DNA of 58,793 nucleotides from Halohasta litorea. Lineage in GTDB: Archaea; Halobacteriota; Halobacteria; Halobacteriales; Haloferacaceae. Of this stretch, positions 82-40,910 are shown piece by piece. Position 1 is the first letter of the stretch. The number at the start of each line of letters is the position of its first letter. Made by a program: the position numbers and the translations under genes. The stretch is from the NCBI RefSeq assembly GCF_024494645.1, contig NZ_JANHDJ010000009.1, forward strand, positions 1 to 58,793, read 5' to 3'. The notes under the pieces were generated by a model. The model was not told the origin of the DNA, made no database searches, and saw only the letters and a program-made list of their open reading frames with translations.

Positions 82-300
82 ACTACGTCCAAGCAGACAC
101 TTCCTCTAACCCGATGTGATCGACTGAGGATAGGGGTAACGGCGGTTTGGACTGCCAGAAGTCCACCAGTCCGATACTGTGGGACTACCTGTGCCCGAAA
201 GGTCTGGTAGTCCGGTGACTGGACTGCCCACCTGCAACTCCCACCGCTCGGGATTCCTCCGCGTAAACGCGGAGGAGGATGTCAAAACATCTCTCCACCT
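82..300. mobile_element. Structured IS200/IS605 right-end relic
   Basis: There is no gene here. The arms cctccgcg (256-263) and cgcggagg (268-275) make a perfect hairpin followed by aggatgtcaa, which resembles right ends of haloarchaeal tnpB elements. Upstream, ggactacc and ggtagtcc can pair with a loop of about 18 bases, in a stretch rich in other complementary segments (about 150-235). This is reminiscent of the folded RNA encoded at tnpB 3' ends. No tnpB coding sequence was recognised beside it, so it is read as a solo end left after deletion or as the junction between two elements. Confidence 0.4.
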
Positions 301-323: not shown

Positions 324-1061
324 TTATTGCTGTATCTCTCGAATGTGGTTCACCGCATCCTTAGCTAGCCGCCTAAAATCTGCTCTGGCTGGTATAATGT
401 CGACAGAACCTCCATGTCTACGGACAGCACGCTCTGTCGGTGCCCCAATTGCACCAATAACCGTCTCCTCTAGCTCGGATTGCAGCGAGGAGAGAGCGTC
501 ACGTTCGGTAGCGATCTCAAAAAAATGCTCGACCGTCTTCGGTGACGTGAATAGTATGCCGTCTAACTCACCGTCTACGGCGAGTTTAACTGACTGGCCA
601 GCAGTATCCGGTCGTTTCAAGCGATATAGATGGGTTTCATGAACAGATGCACCCGCTTCTTTTAGTCCCCGAATCAGTACATCACTTCCGTGTGCACTGC
701 GAGCGATTTCCACCGTATTCCCTTCAACTTCGTCTGCCAACTCTTCGACGAGTCCCGTGGAAGTAAATGTCGAAGGAATCACGTCGACTGAATAGCCGCA
801 ATTTCGTAACGCAGTTGCTGTCTGGTGGCCTACCGCACATACTGTCGTTCCATCTTGATGCCATCCCTGCTTCTCAGCGAATTTAACCCCGGTCGGACTG
901 GTGAAGATGCAGTATTCTGCCTGCTGTGGAGCCTGCCCTGTTGGACAAATGGACAGCATTGGATCTGCGATTGGCGACACTTCCAGTGATTGAAGATAGC
1001 AGACAGCTTCGTCGATCCGAGTGTCGTCAGGGCGGAGGACAGCCACCTTCGGCTTAGGCAT
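324..1061 (-). CDS. hemD: Uroporphyrinogen-III synthase
   Basis: The 245-residue protein has the usual length and layout of HemD. It starts with KVAVLRPDD and has the CIFTSPTGVKFAE motif around residue 50, GILFTSPKTVEHFFE in the second half and GAIGAPTERAVRRHG near the end. HemD closes linear hydroxymethylbilane to uroporphyrinogen III, the branch point for heme, siroheme and cobamides, in the cytoplasm. hemC is not adjacent, so the gene stands apart from its usual partner. It is transcribed away from the deoxyhypusine synthase gene, sharing a short intergenic region. Confidence 0.9.
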   Translation of the reverse strand: MPKPKVAVLRPDDTRIDEAVCYLQSLEVSPIADPMLSICPTGQAPQQAEYCIFTSPTGVKFAEKQGWHQDGTTVCAVGHQTATALRNCGYSVDVIPSTFTSTGLVEELADEVEGNTVEIARSAHGSDVLIRGLKEAGASVHETHLYRLKRPDTAGQSVKLAVDGELDGILFTSPKTVEHFFEIATERDALSSLQSELEETVIGAIGAPTERAVRRHGGSVDIIPARADFRRLAKDAVNHIREIQQ

Positions 1062-4667: not shown

Positions 4668-5468
4668 ATGGGTGATCAGACAGCCAAAACAACTGTTCGC
4701 TCGCTTTCCATAGTAGATACCATACAGCGATTGGATGGTGCGACGTTAGATGAATTAACAACCGAACTGGCAATGGCGAGAAGTACGGTACATGTGCACC
4801 TTCGCACGCTTATCGATCATGGCTATCTGACGAAGGAGAGTGAAATGTACCACGTTGGTTTGCGATTTCTCAACCACGGCGAATACGCGCGGTCACGGAA
4901 ACGGGCATACGTTCTTGCTGAAGAGACTGTATCCAATCTTTCTGAGCAGATTGATGAAGAGGTAGAATTTGTCGTTGAAAACAACGGTCGGGGTATTCTT
5001 GTTCACGAATCATTCCATCCGGATAGTCAGTTTGACTCAAAGGATTCTCACACGTCCAAATCGATTACAGCTGCTGGTATCTACTATTATCTTCACAGTG
5101 TCGCAACTGGAAAAGCGATGCTTGCTGAATACCCGAGGGATCGTGTTGAGGAGATAGTAGACCAGTGGGGGTTACAAGAACAGACTGAGAAAACAATTAC
5201 CGATCAAGACTCGCTCTATGAATCTCTGGATGCGATCAAGGAACAGGGAGTTGCGTTTGCTGACGAAGAATATGTTAATGGGTTACGAGAAGTCGGTCGG
5301 ATCGTAAAAAACCCGGATGAGAGTATTCTTGGCGCGATTGCAGTTATTGGTCCGACATACCGATTCCAGAATGACCGATTCAACAATGAAATTCCAAACA
5401 TTCTGGATGACTATGTCACATCACTTGAAGGCGAAATCGAAGAAGCCTATCGAGAGGAGCATTTTTAG
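4668..5468 (+). CDS. IclR-family transcriptional regulator
   Basis: The 266-residue protein has an N-terminal winged helix-turn-helix (residues about 10-70: DTIQRLDGATLDELTTEL, ARSTVHVHLRTLIDHGYL). The IclR effector domain follows, recognisable from YLHSVATGKAMLAEYP and the tail segment VGRIVKNPDESILGAIAVIGP. Family members bind small organic ligands and control adjacent catabolic genes, but no such operon is next to it. Transposon DNA begins within 20 bases of its stop. Its regulon cannot be inferred from context. Confidence 0.88.
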   Translation: MGDQTAKTTVRSLSIVDTIQRLDGATLDELTTELAMARSTVHVHLRTLIDHGYLTKESEMYHVGLRFLNHGEYARSRKRAYVLAEETVSNLSEQIDEEVEFVVENNGRGILVHESFHPDSQFDSKDSHTSKSITAAGIYYYLHSVATGKAMLAEYPRDRVEEIVDQWGLQEQTEKTITDQDSLYESLDAIKEQGVAFADEEYVNGLREVGRIVKNPDESILGAIAVIGPTYRFQNDRFNNEIPNILDDYVTSLEGEIEEAYREEHF

Positions 5469-5624
5469 CTGATTACAGGCGGTAAGCCCCCTTCCTCAAG
5501 GACCAATGCAGGCCGTAGGCCGAGTAGCGCAGTAGGGAGGGAATACACCGCCGTCATTATCTTCTATACACTATTCTACTCCTGGCCCCACGGGCCCACG
5601 TACCGATACACGTATGTTGAAACT

Positions 5625-5783: not shown

Positions 5784-5786
5784 CCG

Positions 5787-6269
5787 ATGAACTACAACTA
5801 CAGGTATCGACTCAAACCGACAAAACGCCAGCGTGAGACGCTGGACTATCACCGCGATACCTGTAGACAACTCTACAACCACGCCCTGTACCGTTTCAAC
5901 CAGATTCCCGAAGACGAGGGCACCGTCAAACAGCGTGTCCGGAAGATTCGTGACGAACTTCCCGACCTCAAAGACTGGTGGGATGCACTCACCGACGTGT
6001 ACTCGAAGGTACTCCAGCCCACCGTTATGCGGATTGCCAAAAACATCAACCGAATCGGCCAACTCAAAGAAAAGGGCCACAACGTTGGGGAGCTTCGATG
6101 GAAGTCACCCGGGGAGTTCCGCAGTTTCACGTACAACCAGTCTGGCTTCGAACTCGACAAGAAGAGTGGTCAGAACGTGTTGGCACTCTCGAAACTCGCG
6201 GATATTCCCATCGAATTTCATCGACAACTCCCCGATGACGCCACTGTCAAGGAAGTCACGCTCAAATAG
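5787..6269 (+). pseudogene. tnpB: tnpB, 5' part (RNA-guided nuclease family), interrupted
   Basis: The N-terminal 160 residues of a TnpB-like protein, starting MNYNYRYRLKPTKRQRETLDYH, the typical N-terminal OrfB helix-turn-helix entry. Frame analysis across the inserted IS1595 element (removing 6275-7258) shows the frame continues perfectly into the 3' part. However, an in-frame TAG lies at 6267-6269, overlapping the first two bases of the duplicated target. The split gene therefore has two lesions, a nonsense codon and an insertion. The rebuilt protein would be about 418 residues, normal for TnpB. Confidence 0.8.
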
Positions 6270-6274
6270 GAAAA

Positions 6275-7251
6275 TCGCTCTTGTGAAGCACGTTGTTGAT
6301 TTTCAGAGCGCGGCGTCGAGAGCGTGTTTGAGTGCTTCGTCACCTGATTTTCTGTAGAGTTCACGGCGGAGTTCGAAAGCTCTGAGATACGGCGTGAGCT
6401 TGTCTTTCGAGACTCCTCGGTGGGGCGAGAGCCACCGTCGCGTCAGCGACGCGTGGCTCTCGCAGTTGTTGACGTCGCCGTCGCCGTGGACGACGTATTC
6501 GCGGTCGAATGCGTCGTCGTCTTCGAGCGGCTCGTAGGCCCGAAATCCGTCTGTATAGACGGTCAATGACTCCTGTTCGTGGTCGGCGAGCAGGAGTCGA
6601 ACGGTCGATTCGTCGGCGGATTTCGCTGGCACGACGTACCGCTCGTCCGCGCCGCGATCGACCAGCGTGAACACCGGTGGTTTGTCGCTGTCGCACGATC
6701 CTCGTCCACGCGTGGAGAGGCCACGCGAGCGCGACGCCTGGTCGCGCTCGCGGCCTTTCAACCCCGCTGAGACGTACACTTCGTCAATTTCAACCGGTCC
6801 AGACAGCGTGATCGACGGCGCGTCGAGCGCGTTGGCGAAGCACTCGACGCGCCGTCTCACCGTTCGATACGACAAATCGAGTTCCGCCTCGATTTTCCGA
6901 ATGCTCGTGTTAAACCGCAAGAACACGTAGATCGTGAAGTACCACTCTTTGAGCTTTAGCTTCGAGTGAGCGATGATCGTGCCGGTCTTATCGTTGAACG
7001 TCCGACTGCAATTCTTACACAGATACCGCTGATACACCCGGTAGCTGCCGTTTCTGACCGTCAGGTCAGAACGGCAGCGAGGGCACTCGACGCCATCACG
7101 CCAGCGAACCTGTTGGAGCAGGTCCGCTGCAGCCGATTCCGACACGAACCGGCTTACTGGGAATATGTCGGGCACCGCTGACGCGGTGCCCTTGCTCTCT
7201 TCGACTTTCAGCCACAGCTCTCGCTATCAACAATCTACTTCGCAAGAGCGA
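6275..7251 (-). mobile_element. IS1595-family insertion sequence with inverted repeats and target duplication
   Basis: The ends are imperfect inverted repeats of about 25 bp: left tcgctcttgtgaagca and, on the opposite strand at the right, tcgctcttgcgaagta, both continuing to a shared ttgttga. Flanking direct repeats aggaaaa (6268-6274 and 7252-7258) are the target duplication. The 977-bp element contains one transposase gene. Removing the element and one repeat copy restores the tnpB frame. The clean target duplication means this is a fairly recent insertion. Confidence 0.88.
6303..7175 (-). CDS. IS1595-family transposase
   Basis: The 290-residue protein starts with a zinc ribbon (CPRCRSDLTVRNG, then CKNC, residues about 33-60), followed by the helical stretch LKLKEWYFTIYVFLRFNTS. 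The catalytic core shows EIDEVYVSAGLKGRE (first Asp), VYTDGFRAYEPL (second Asp) and NNCESHASLTRRWLSPHRG near the C-terminus. This order is typical of the ISH4-like IS1595 group in haloarchaea. The frame is intact, so the enzyme may be active. It fills nearly the whole element. Confidence 0.88.
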   Translation of the reverse strand: MPDIFPVSRFVSESAAADLLQQVRWRDGVECPRCRSDLTVRNGSYRVYQRYLCKNCSRTFNDKTGTIIAHSKLKLKEWYFTIYVFLRFNTSIRKIEAELDLSYRTVRRRVECFANALDAPSITLSGPVEIDEVYVSAGLKGRERDQASRSRGLSTRGRGSCDSDKPPVFTLVDRGADERYVVPAKSADESTVRLLLADHEQESLTVYTDGFRAYEPLEDDDAFDREYVVHGDGDVNNCESHASLTRRWLSPHRGVSKDKLTPYLRAFELRRELYRKSGDEALKHALDAAL

Positions 7252-7292
7252 AGGAAAATACCGGCGAGTGGCTCGCTATCTTCGGTATAGAG

Positions 7293-8024
7293 ATGGACAC
7301 AGAATCGCCAGCGAAGCCACCGCTGGGCGATATTGATCCCGAGGAAATGGTCGGCATCGACGTGGGGATCCTGAAGTATGCTCACGACACAGACGGCACG
7401 GCGGTCAAGTCACTCGACCTGTCCGACGAACGCGACAGACTTGAACGAGAGCAACGGAAACTCTCGCGCAAAGAGTACGAGTCGAACAATTGGGAAAAGC
7501 AACGCCAGACGGTCGCAGAGTGCCATCTTGACATCAAGCGCAAGCGGCGTGACTTCCTCCACAAACTCTCGAACTACTATGCTCGGGAGTACGAACTGGT
7601 GGCCGTCGAAAACCTCAACGTGAAGGGGATGATGGAATCGCCGCGCAACAGCCACAACACAGCGTCAGCGGCGTGGAACACCTTCACGAATATGCTCGAA
7701 TACAAGTGTGAACGTAAAGGCGCACACTTCGTGGAAGTTGACCCCAACGGCACCACTAAAGAATGCGCTCAGTGTAGTGTCGAAACCCCGCTGTGGGTGC
7801 GTGAACACGCCTGTCCCGCCTGTGATTTCAAGGGGGATAGAAACGCAAACGCGGCGTGGAACATTCTTTCTCGCGGACTCACCGAACTAGGAGTGGGTCA
7901 CTCCGAAGGAACGCCTGTGGAGACTGCGCTCCCTGCGGGAACCACTCCGGTTCCTGCAAAGTGCGTCGTGGAAGCAGGAAGTCCCGTCCTCAGCGAGCGC
8001 GGAAGCGCGAGCAGGGCGGGGTAG
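7293..8024 (+). pseudogene. tnpB: tnpB, 3' part with RuvC core and zinc finger
   Basis: This segment continues the frame of the 5' part and contains every catalytic element of TnpB. The RuvC aspartate is in VGIDVGILKYA, the glutamate in AVENLNVKGM and the final aspartate in GDRNANAAWN. A four-cysteine zinc finger (CAQC...CPAC) lies between the last two. An internal ATG at 7293 opens a 243-residue frame, but without the N-terminal RNA- and DNA-binding regions it should not be a functional nuclease. The last 150 bases form strong stems at the transposon end, where the guide RNA scaffold of TnpB systems is encoded. Confidence 0.82.
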
Positions 8025-8033
8025 TTCACAGCA

Positions 8034-9376: not shown

Positions 9377-9439
9377 CAATGCCCGGCCCCAAATCATTAT
9401 ATCGCTAATGGTGGTTAGTTCAGGTAGCAGAATTCTCAA

Positions 9440-9570
9440 AGGTGGAGACTGTGACCGCTACGGACACGACTCAGTTTGAGTCTGTGTCTGCACGTCACGT
9501 CATCGAAACAGCAAGCTTGCCCTCGTGAGAGCAGGATTCCCCGCGCCACCGTGCGCGGGGTAACGTTCAA
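9440..9570 (+). mobile_element. Solo right end of a tnpB element (C-terminal relic plus hairpin)
   Basis: The frame before the hairpin reads TDTTQFESVSARHVIETASL, which parallels TnpB C-terminal tails (such as PVSAKRVVEAG in the relic at 24.4 kb). It is followed by a perfect hairpin ccccgcgc (9539-9546) / gcgcgggg (9553-9560). Nothing of the catalytic core remains. It is a leftover 3' end, directly upstream of the metal-transport gene pair. Confidence 0.6.
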
Positions 9571-24355: not shown

Positions 24356-24439
24356 ATCGAGTATGGGACTTGTGGAAGTGTTGTTAAACACAACGTTCTG
24401 CACTTACTAATCCAACCTGTCCGGCATATGGTTCAAGGC

Positions 24440-24640
24440 CAACAGGGACGCGAACGCGGCATGGAACAACCATTCTCGCGGCATCAAGCAGTTAGGAGAG
24501 GGACACTCCGAAGGAACGCCTGTGGAGACTGCGCTCCCTGTGGATACACCCGTATCTGCAAAGCGCGTCGTGGAAGCAGGAAACCCCACCCTCAAGAAAG
24601 CGGCAGTAGCCGCTGAGTAGGGTGGGGTAGTTCACTAGCT
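24440..24640 (+). mobile_element. Solo right end of a tnpB element (C-terminal relic plus stem)
   Basis: The frame DANAAWNN, then EGHSEGTPVETALPVDTP and VSAKRVVEAGNPTLKK, is the C-terminal tail of a TnpB whose last RuvC Asp is in DANAA. It is nearly the same DNA as the end of the tnpB at 7.85-8.03 kb, including gtagttcac. The terminal stem ccccaccct (584-592) / agggtgggg (619-627) is perfect and differs in sequence from that of the 8-kb copy while keeping pairing. No upstream tnpB remains. This could still encode the guide RNA scaffold. Confidence 0.7.
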
Positions 24641-24734
24641 ATGTGACTTCAATGTAGATGGTCTGAGTAAATCTAGCTGTTCATGCGAGTTCAAAGGGTG
24701 AGCATTAAATCTCCAAGACTCGTTGGTTTTAGTG

Positions 24735-28609: not shown

Positions 28610-29134
28610 ATTAATATATGTATCTAGTACTCACAGATATGTTTTGGCCATCTATTCAACTCAGCGATAAGAATTCCGCCTATACTGACCGATCTCGATG
28701 GCCCGGTCAAACTCACCCGTAGAAGGTATGCGCTCGTAGTATAACAATGAACAGACTCACTCTTATGTAGAAACGCGGAAAGCCCGTATAATTATACTGA
28801 GTCGCCGGTAGTCACGGCGACTGCGTCTGTTCAGACCGCGCCGCACCCTTCAGGGCGTTCAAAAAACCGCTTTGTCGGTCAGCGGAGCTCGTGGCGTTTG
28901 TCCGCGAAGCCGACCGTGATGAGGTACTCGAGGAACTCGTCGAACCAGTCGACATCGCTGGGCGTATCGGTCGCAAGGTGACACGTAGCGAGCGGAAGCC
29001 CACCCTTTAGGGGCGGGTGTAAGCGACAGCATGGCTTGGCAATCCACGCGCTATTGCTCGTCTGGATGTTCCACCGCTTCCAACCCCGCTTGAAATTCTA
29101 TTGCCAGGGTTTCGTTTTATACTGGACGCCGAAC
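28610..29134. other. Gene-poor interval with a coding-like relic and a possible tnpB end
   Basis: At about 28880-29010 on the plus strand a frame reads SAELVAFVREADRDEVLEEL and VEPVDIAGRIGRKV, a plausible but unrecognised C-terminal fragment. It is followed by cccacccttt-aggggcgggt, resembling the terminal stem of tnpB elements. The rest is featureless. Confidence 0.3.
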
Positions 29135-30860: not shown

Positions 30861-30960
30861 CGTGGTGAATCGCCATACTGCGCTTGATTTAGCTAGTTGA
30901 CGGCATGCTTGATGTTGTAGACGGCACACTTGACCTCCTCCCGCACCTGAAGACGCAGGT
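30861..30960 (-). pseudogene. 3' end remnant of an IS5-family element
   Basis: The end gtggtgaatcgcc and the minus-strand peptide EVKCAVYNIKHAVN match the C-terminal end of the IS5-type transposases whose larger fragments lie at 40.6-40.9 kb (MCAVYNIKRAVKQ). Only about 25 codons remain. It lies between the 7TM kinase and the PadR gene. Confidence 0.55.
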
Positions 30961-38519: not shown

Positions 38520-39070
38520 ATTGCCCGCTATTTGGCGAAGCGGACACTGTGAAAGAGAATCTGCAATCAGAGAAGGCCGAAAAGGCTTTGAATCTGTGGG
38601 GTAACTTTCTCTGTAGGAGCATTCAGTCACACGCTCCTTGCAGGATCACTTCACTGATCCGCTTGAGGAATACTGCAGAACGACATCCGGGGCGAGGCTT
38701 AGGAACTTCACGCCCGGATTGTCGTTTGGAACTACACTCTTGAGTCATATGTATTGTGTTCAGTTTCTGTTAGTAGTGGTGTTTGTGTGGTCGACACTAA
38801 GCTTGCTCAGCGAGTTCATCCTTACCCGCTCTCTATGCTGAGAGACAGAGCAGAAGCTCTCTGAAGGCAAACGCTTATGTTCATCCAACAAAAAGCAGGA
38901 GATGTCCAACCGCCTGCTTTCTCGGTTTATTGTTTCCCTTAGCTGTTGGCTTAGTTTGTGAGATGGAATGACTTAAAGTATTGCCTAGTAGTTTGAGTTG
39001 CCAGCCTACAAACCCGCGAGACTGCCGACGATCCGGTTCATCATTAGCCCTACCCCAAGCTAAAGGAGAA
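38520..39070. other. Leader region of the RepH-like gene with three hairpins
   Basis: No gene is seen. Three inverted repeats lie just before the RepH-like gene: aggagc/gctcct (38615-38638), ggatca/tgatcc (38643-38660) and a longer imperfect one, aacgacatccggg (38679-38691) with cccggattgtcgtt (38713-38726). The stretch after 38740 is AT-rich. Such structure fits an origin or an antisense regulatory RNA, but neither is shown. Confidence 0.35.
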
Positions 39071-39270
39071 GGTCAGCTTCAAACCGACCGTCAGGGGAAT
39101 CACGATTGAATATGTCGACCACGGTATACGAGTATCATCTGCCGGAAATACGGCCAGAAACGGCTAAATCCCGTGACGGCATCGATTTTGAGTGTCGAAG
39201 ATGGGGTACGAGGACCACACCGATATGAACGCCGCAATCAATATTGCGAATATGTCTATATCGTAGGGTT
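39070..39270 (+). pseudogene. Decayed tnpB C-terminal region
   Basis: The frames read EKVSFKPTVRGITIEYVDHG, then after frame changes MGYEDHTDMNAAINIANM, the region around the TnpB zinc finger and last RuvC Asp. The cysteines expected in the finger are mostly lost and several stops interrupt the frame. It is an old relic of a different tnpB lineage from those at 8.0 and 24.5 kb (which read DANAAWN). Confidence 0.55.
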
Positions 39271-39440: not shown

Positions 39441-39570
39441 GCCGTGGTGAATCGCTAGCCGTAGCGTGATTTCACGGGTTCAGAGATCTCTTGATGTTGT
39501 GAACCACACACATCAAGGCAAGCTCACGAAATTCACCGTAGACTGAGAGGCTGCGCTCGGTCCGACGACC
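39441..39570 (-). pseudogene. 3' end remnant of an IS5-family element
   Basis: The end gtggtgaatcgct and the minus-strand peptide RTERSLSVYGEFRELALMCV followed by VHNIKRSLNP are the last 30 residues of an IS5-type transposase. It lies directly before the quinone-oxidoreductase gene. A related remnant lies after that gene in the same orientation. Confidence 0.65.
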
Positions 39571-40616: not shown

Positions 40617-40910
40617 TCTGGTAAATCGCCAGACGGCGTTTGATTTCACTGTTTTACGGCTCGCTTGATGTTGTAGACCGCACACATCAAAACGATCTCA
40701 CGAAATTCGCGGTACCACGCTCGGGCACGCACCGCGTGGCCGAGCGTCCGCTGGATCGTCGAGAAGACGGTCTCAGATAGTACCCTTTGGCTGTATAGAG
40801 ATCCATCGATGCGCGCGTTATGCGCGCAGTCGATGGGTCGGAACTCACGATGATTAATCAACGGTTTCACACCCTCTTCGCGCAATTTATCGCGTGATTG
40901 CTGCCGTTCA
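40617..40910 (-). pseudogene. C-terminal third of an IS5-family transposase with its end
   Basis: The minus-strand peptide MREEGVKPLINHREFRPIDC, then SLYSQRVLSETVFSTIQRTL and YREFREIVLMCAVYNIKRAV, contains the late catalytic Glu (SETVFS). Everything before the second catalytic Asp is missing. The end carries gtaaatcgcc, related to gtgaatcgct of the other copies. It is the larger of the two remnants flanking the quinone-oxidoreductase gene. Confidence 0.75.

Follow-up and report, generated by a model that had tools for sequence, protein, structure and literature searches.

Can the right end of a transposon that has lost its nuclease gene still supply a guide RNA, or is it simply what is left of a broken element? 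The question is raised by a feature at 24.4 kb in the window, by which we mean the whole 58,793-nucleotide stretch analysed here (contig C34 of a 3.81-Mb haloarchaeal genome). A sequence-only reading of this DNA had proposed solo tnpB right ends at 24.4, 9.4 and about 0.25 kb, with a weak one at 29.0 kb, and suggested that they could be orphan guide RNAs recruited by TnpB proteins encoded elsewhere.

The solo right end at 24.4 kb

The 24-kb copy comprises the following features.

24432..24617 (+): tnpB remnant, last 62 codons, followed by TAG at 24618 (tblastn, codon count)
24493..24635 (+): complete family-A reRNA scaffold and transposon right end (R1 covariance model, fold, alignment)
24584..24592 (+): 5' arm of the right-end stem, CCCCACCCT (sequence, fold)
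24619..24627 (+): 3' arm of the right-end stem, AGGGTGGGG (sequence, fold)
24636..24655 (+): predicted guide segment adjoining the right end, TAGCTATGTGACTTCA... (position)

The 143 nt at this end match R1, the covariance model for family-A right ends that was made from 30 copies with tnpB, over its full length (154.7 bits, E 9.6e-45); the two intact copies of the same genome score 148.8 and 123.4 bits. None of 200 shuffled sequences was as stable as the predicted fold of the RNA (z -4.64), which overlaps the 3' end of tnpB and stops at the transposon right end, as judged by tblastn, alignment and R1. The terminus at 24,635 is TAGTTCAC, like that of most relatives. All that is left of the protein corresponds to residues 347-406 of a 412-residue query (tblastn; the intact C33 TnpB is 68% identical here), and the TAG that closes the remnant falls within the right-end hairpin. 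Between 22.4 and 24.43 kb, TnpB homology did not rise above a background of weak matches. No left end was detected near 24 kb, the left-end HMM matching only the left end at 5.5 kb across the window, and the copy therefore does not show the palindromes near both termini that characterize PATEs and non-autonomous IS605 elements. Rfam gave no matches in the window at gathering scores, and six related loci, searched with E values as high as 1, had none either. The solo end proposed at 24.4 kb is thus borne out by scaffold, fold and truncated coding sequence alike.

We consider it probable that a haloarchaeal element of IS1341/IS605 type, belonging to family A, lost its 5' part here and that this feature is its right end. 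The loss would have taken the left end and most of tnpB, leaving the full reRNA scaffold, the right-end hairpin with its TTCAC terminus and 62 tnpB codons. What sits less easily with a remnant is how well the scaffold is kept, whereas a purely inert relic would decay, as has the relative on contig C5 of the same genome (73.1 bits with R1, fold z -1.79).

The stem at 24 kb had been noted to differ from that of a second end at 8.0 kb while both keep pairing. Difference and pairing both hold, the 8.0-kb stem also pairing when folded. It is the 24-kb stem, however, that represents the family consensus (26 of the 30 tnpB-intact copies have A-U where the two stems differ), and the 8-kb copy is the variant. 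Because of this, compensatory change was rejected as evidence at 24 kb. The 8.0-kb end and the others in the window are placed as follows.

5462-5469 (flank): target motif TTTTTAGC beside the left end of a split element
5470..5562 (+): left end of the split element (left-end HMM, E 1e-18)
5784..6272 (+): N-terminal tnpB part, residues 1-158 (tblastn, NF040570)
6303..7175 (-): IS1595-family transposase gene inserted in tnpB (NCBIfam NF033547, E 7e-37)
7242..8024 (+): C-terminal tnpB part with RuvC/TNB domains; residues 154-404 aligned at 7242-8009 (tblastn)
7888..8029 (+): family-A scaffold and right end of the split element (R1, 129.6 bits)
9416..9570 (+): divergent scaffold and right end without tnpB, of another subfamily (R1, 37.8 bits, E 8e-10)
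125..285 (+): right end of a second TnpB family, ending ...GAGGATGTCAA, the window holding no tnpB of that family (nhmmer, E 4e-9)

The 8.0-kb end is therefore not gene-less; it belongs to a full element with its left end, whose tnpB is split by an IS1595-type transposase gene. The solo end at 9.4 kb stood up, though it is divergent; upstream of it TnpB matches are weak, the best lying inside the scaffold itself. The end at 0.25 kb was likewise confirmed, as that of the family of 430-441 aa TnpBs found on contigs C9, C11 and C33 (best match in 20 shuffled windows, E 1.9). At 29.0 kb the proposal failed: the hairpin has no TnpB homology, matches the minus-strand end of another element, and was rejected as a tnpB end. 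That these structures are chance palindromes without any relation to transposons has virtually no probability. Such an account applies, as regards TnpB, to the 29.0-kb hairpin only, and is refuted at 24.4 kb by the E value of the scaffold and also for the ends at 8.0, 9.4 and 0.25 kb.

Other mobile-element traces were seen in the window. The stretch 28940-29100 (-), shared with locus L117, holds the 3' end of a small ORF followed by the hairpin, and is the end of another mobile element. A decayed TnpB fragment with three stops lies at 39057-39245 (+). Three direct-repeat copies of 67 nt (30863-30929, 39445-39511 and 40619-40685, the latter two 67% and 82% like the first) are perhaps the ends of one insertion-sequence family.

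Candidate partner nucleases, predicted guide and preservation

The TnpB TNB domain has 15 matches in the genome. Open family-A tnpB copies lie on contigs C30 (407 aa) and C33 (412 aa), their products being 87% identical. The C33 protein scores 277 bits against the RNA-guided TnpB model NF040570 (cut-off 100), and its residues 64-369 align with the ISDra2 TnpB structure 8bf8 (E 1.9e-32). Its alignment with ISDra2-type TnpB spans all three RuvC motifs, at what we take to be their positions. The family resembles the ISDra2 TnpB-reRNA system both in this structural match and in having its guide 3' of the right end; in ISDra2 the guide RNA is reportedly made by the same element that encodes the nuclease. 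Here, judging by sequence, the C30 and C33 TnpBs, both intact and of family A, could act in trans on the 24-kb RNA. If transcribed, that RNA could load onto either protein and would carry the flank from 24636 onwards as its guide. Its only natural target would then be the original empty insertion site, that is, the target motif followed by the flank. Since the genome seemingly lacks this site, the RNA is probably idle here.

Comparison of the bases past the 24-kb end with genomic sites, which the sequence-only reading had suggested as a check, yielded no exact site besides the element's own locus: the first 16 nt of the guide occur exactly once in the genome. With 3 mismatches there were 5 further sites, fewer than the 22 of a reversed-pattern control. 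The motif TTANC followed by the guide had no exact match in viral contigs. Left-end flanks of 50 full-length copies carried TTAGC in 20 cases, TTAAC in 13, TTAC in 12 and TTAAT in 2, the other 3 having none of the four. At 24 kb the motif was lost together with the left end, which would have pointed to the original target, and the absence of guide matches elsewhere is accordingly not decisive.

Is the scaffold nevertheless maintained? Its mean identity to intact copies is 0.865 (range among intact copies 0.845-0.929), and that of the 78 nt upstream is 0.758 (0.713-0.864). The combination of relaxed coding sequence and conserved scaffold was therefore not found. As both segments lie within the spread of intact copies, a relic and a maintained RNA are not separable at this locus, and recent truncation explains the preservation equally well as maintenance does. 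The 24-kb flanks had no match in 3 congeners, where synteny was absent, or in plasmids.

These data bear on the possibility that the solo end is expressed and kept for guiding a TnpB of family A, encoded at a different locus, to some useful target. Such a maintained guide would account for a scaffold equal to that of intact copies in a genome with two potential partner TnpBs, and it draws on the two-sided changes that preserve pairing in tnpB-less relatives (below). We nonetheless hold it to be quite improbable for this copy, whose guide lacks both a second genomic site and an exact match with target motif in viral contigs, whose coding remnant and scaffold diverge in the same proportion as in intact copies, and whose locus is not syntenic in the congeners. 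The earlier proposal of guides acting in trans thus stands in part: it fits the intact scaffold, the same-family TnpBs and the paired stems of relatives, but not a 24-kb guide without a second site. For solo ends in general a role in trans is plausible, with comparative support that comes from tnpB-less relatives and none that comes from the copy in the window.

Relatives without tnpB

R1 matched at E 1e-24 in at least 39 of 60 genomes of the family. Among 120 listed R1 matches, all of at least 122 bits, a family-A TnpB match (from those judged possible partners) was adjacent in 78 and absent in 42, the latter being 40 that were fetched, one unfetched at a contig edge, and the window. Leaving out the unfetched one, 16 of those fetched that lie at contig edges, and L124, which has a decayed TnpB, gave 24 solos including the window, whose status was verified by tblastn on the fetched DNA with about 2 kb of upstream sequence. 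TnpB homology begins only from residue 340 in 18 of the 24, amounting to roughly the scaffold alone, and at residues 232-301 in the other 6. A left end is close by, or apparently so, in 11 of the 18; in L114 this place is taken up by a run of N, and the left end of L123 is partial. Clustered truncation points were considered as proof of selection and set aside as weak: among the 13 solos without a left end, a uniform model gives P 0.023 for the 7 whose homology begins no earlier than residue 340, and the compact copies are related to one another.

Variants were also seen among the retrieved loci. In L039 and L040 an intact family-A copy is followed, about 500 bp downstream, by another scaffold that is solo (862-1014 (-) in each), and changes in the apical hairpin set the solo scaffolds of the two genomes apart. 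Family-A copies at L001 1274-1488 (-) and L053 2587-2799 (+) have an extra hairpin-rich insert of about 55 nt within the scaffold, ahead of the right-end stem.

Searching for the left-end and scaffold HMMs within 900 nt of each other gave 32 distinct compact elements of 270-913 bp, mostly 360-570 bp, among the loci retrieved up to that point. TnpB queries from the window's genome matched in 28 of the 32, each best match starting at residue 346 or later. TTAGC lies to the left of 28 of them, and their right flanks differ, as expected of insertions at different places. In having both ends, no transposase gene and a preferred target motif, they resemble PATEs and non-autonomous IS605 elements. 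Between left end and scaffold, 26 share a homologous body. Compact copies also occur on plasmids, on PL131 of Natronomonas pharaonis at 64,487-64,974 (scaffold 115 bits) and in Haladaptatus halobius (scaffold 117 bits, body 115 bits); the PLSDB gene tables, which are incomplete, list no feature at either place. Members of a second compact class (L227-L232 and L240-L246), from several haloarchaeal families, have a left end, a TTACTACCCC/GGGTAGTAAG hairpin, an octaloop hairpin and a variant scaffold of about 27-77 bits in R1.

In the scaffold of 21 aligned compact elements, 95.4% of cells are paired. Two-sided changes affect 10 pairs and 37 cells, counts that kinship among the elements inflates, compared with 5.4 and 10.4 in shuffles and at most 5 pairs and 5 cells in slid controls. 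Against the RNA reading, the right-end stem is broken in L125 and the core helix is missing from the four elements named below. The stems of relatives are not randomly substituted, random substitution being what the sequence-only reading had named as telling against its proposal; pairing is kept through two-sided changes. Covarying scaffold structure is present in tnpB-intact and tnpB-less copies. The mean minority fraction is 0.114 in the scaffold, 0.126 in the body and 0.256 in the spacer, so that scaffold and body are about twice as conserved.

It could be argued that this sequence serves solely as the single-stranded right end for a Y1 transposase, with the RNA scaffold as a by-product. 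The right-end part is the most conserved of the scaffold in the aligned tnpB-less elements (0.088, against 0.123 for the core), and the core helix is gone from 4 of the 21 (L174, L137, L148 and L178), which nevertheless retain both ends; PATEs are mobile without coding (PMC3119063). A requirement for the DNA end only is unlikely, as the core outside the right-end hairpin is itself twice as conserved as the spacer and covaries, 3 of the 4 pairs of helix 4 being changed on both sides. Compact relatives with both ends instead look like non-autonomous transposons that keep a guide scaffold.

How do these elements compare with known ones? Guide RNAs without an adjacent nuclease gene are reportedly found as standalone omegaRNAs of IscB and in omegaRNA-bearing PATEs of Geobacillus; nuclease or host is different there. 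PATEs, terminal-only IS605 remnants and HqIRS71, which has a partial C-terminal coding region, are described for Haloquadratum walsbyi in PMC3119063. The terminal-only remnants are a haloarchaeal precedent for the 24-kb end, and all of these, HqIRS71 in particular, share with our elements the absent transposase gene and the near-terminal palindromes of IS605-type elements (PMC3119063). That account predates reRNA and treats its elements as non-coding mobile repeats, whereas here a complete covarying guide scaffold is kept, with a second structured RNA region in compact elements, and the 24-kb copy, unlike PATEs, has no left end. In Halobacterium salinarum, omegaRNA/sotRNA with a right-end hairpin and a predicted guide is expressed, and low TnpB levels are cited (PMC12558985). 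The putative 24-kb RNA resembles these in lying over the tnpB 3' end, in having a hairpin at the right end and in its predicted guide. The ones described there are all from tnpB loci, and the text of PMC12558985 makes no mention of orphan, solo, truncated, pseudogene or MITE. Solo ends are thus a known kind of remnant, and the compact elements extend the known PATE-type elements and are not a new class, although no description of this tnpB-less family was found in the literature searched, outside which most subscription papers lie.

The compact body and a hairpin inside tnpB

The body of the compact elements was rejected as a protein gene: codon positions 1, 2 and 3 vary by 0.121, 0.147 and 0.112, and several members have in-frame stops. 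It covaries: two-sided changes are seen in 12 pairs and 23 cells, compared with 4.7 and 6.6 in shuffles. Under strict filters and with E 0.001 as threshold, a model of the body, R2, found matches in 19 of the 242 genomes that represent the class, and none in the window's own genome. The weaker matches of R2 come from additional compact elements, whose scaffold is a variant one, and extend over no more than a hairpin of some 39 nt. In the PL131 copy, a GACAAGAA hairpin was found by script and R2 had no match at E 0.01. Within the window R2 gave 23.5 bits on the tnpB half of the 8-kb element, which led to a hairpin within the gene.

6142..6173 (+): covarying hairpin inside the tnpB reading frame (covariation over tnpB contexts)

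This hairpin has an outer stem, a UUCRA bulge, a 4-bp inner stem (ACTC/GAGT) and the 8-nt loop GACAAGAA. Counted over 121 distinct tnpB contexts, A-T forms the first inner pair in 65, G-C in 48, G-T in 6 and C-G in 1, with 1 context unpaired at this place. In the 96 contexts where both changes are synonymous (third bases of Lys/Glu and of Ser AGY codons), it is A-T in 60, G-C in 29, G-T in 6 and A-C in 1; Fisher's test gives P 1.4e-17, which, the sequences being related, is no true probability. The pair has the highest Watson-Crick excess among 6328 third-position pairs of the 345-nt context. A loop-position control also correlates, less strongly (48, 29, 7, 6), which indicates that lineage contributes to the signal. 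A 4-bp stem encloses 56 of 76 GACAAGAA octamers, compared with 10 of 542 permuted octamers, although the share of L217-L246, retrieved by a model containing this hairpin, is not independent; for octamers inside tnpB it closes 18 of 19. The hairpin of the reading frame recurs in tnpB-less elements.

A wider proposal may be advanced tentatively, and we regard it as possible at most. Haloarchaeal family A would have two RNA modules, the 3' reRNA and the tnpB-embedded hairpin. Compact elements of several haloarchaeal families would have retained both modules along with both ends and would be guide-only satellites that borrow TnpB and transposase from full elements, their reRNAs cutting their own vacated sites and so favouring retention, and solo ends such as that at 24.4 kb would be broken copies still feeding guides.

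In conclusion, it is surprising that a covarying guide scaffold is kept across genera without tnpB, and that a covarying hairpin lies in the tnpB reading frame. Synonymous covariation of the hairpin inside tnpB points to an RNA function, of which we know no earlier description, in a gene family that has been widely studied. Should tnpB-less elements draw on nucleases encoded elsewhere, a single TnpB would serve many guides per cell, like a Cas nuclease with its spacers, and the evolution of guide sets could be uncoupled from that of the nuclease. Covariation among the tnpB-less elements makes the idea of a borrowed nuclease testable: the sequence shows which guides they carry, which motif they target (TTTAGC) and which TnpBs would be their partners.
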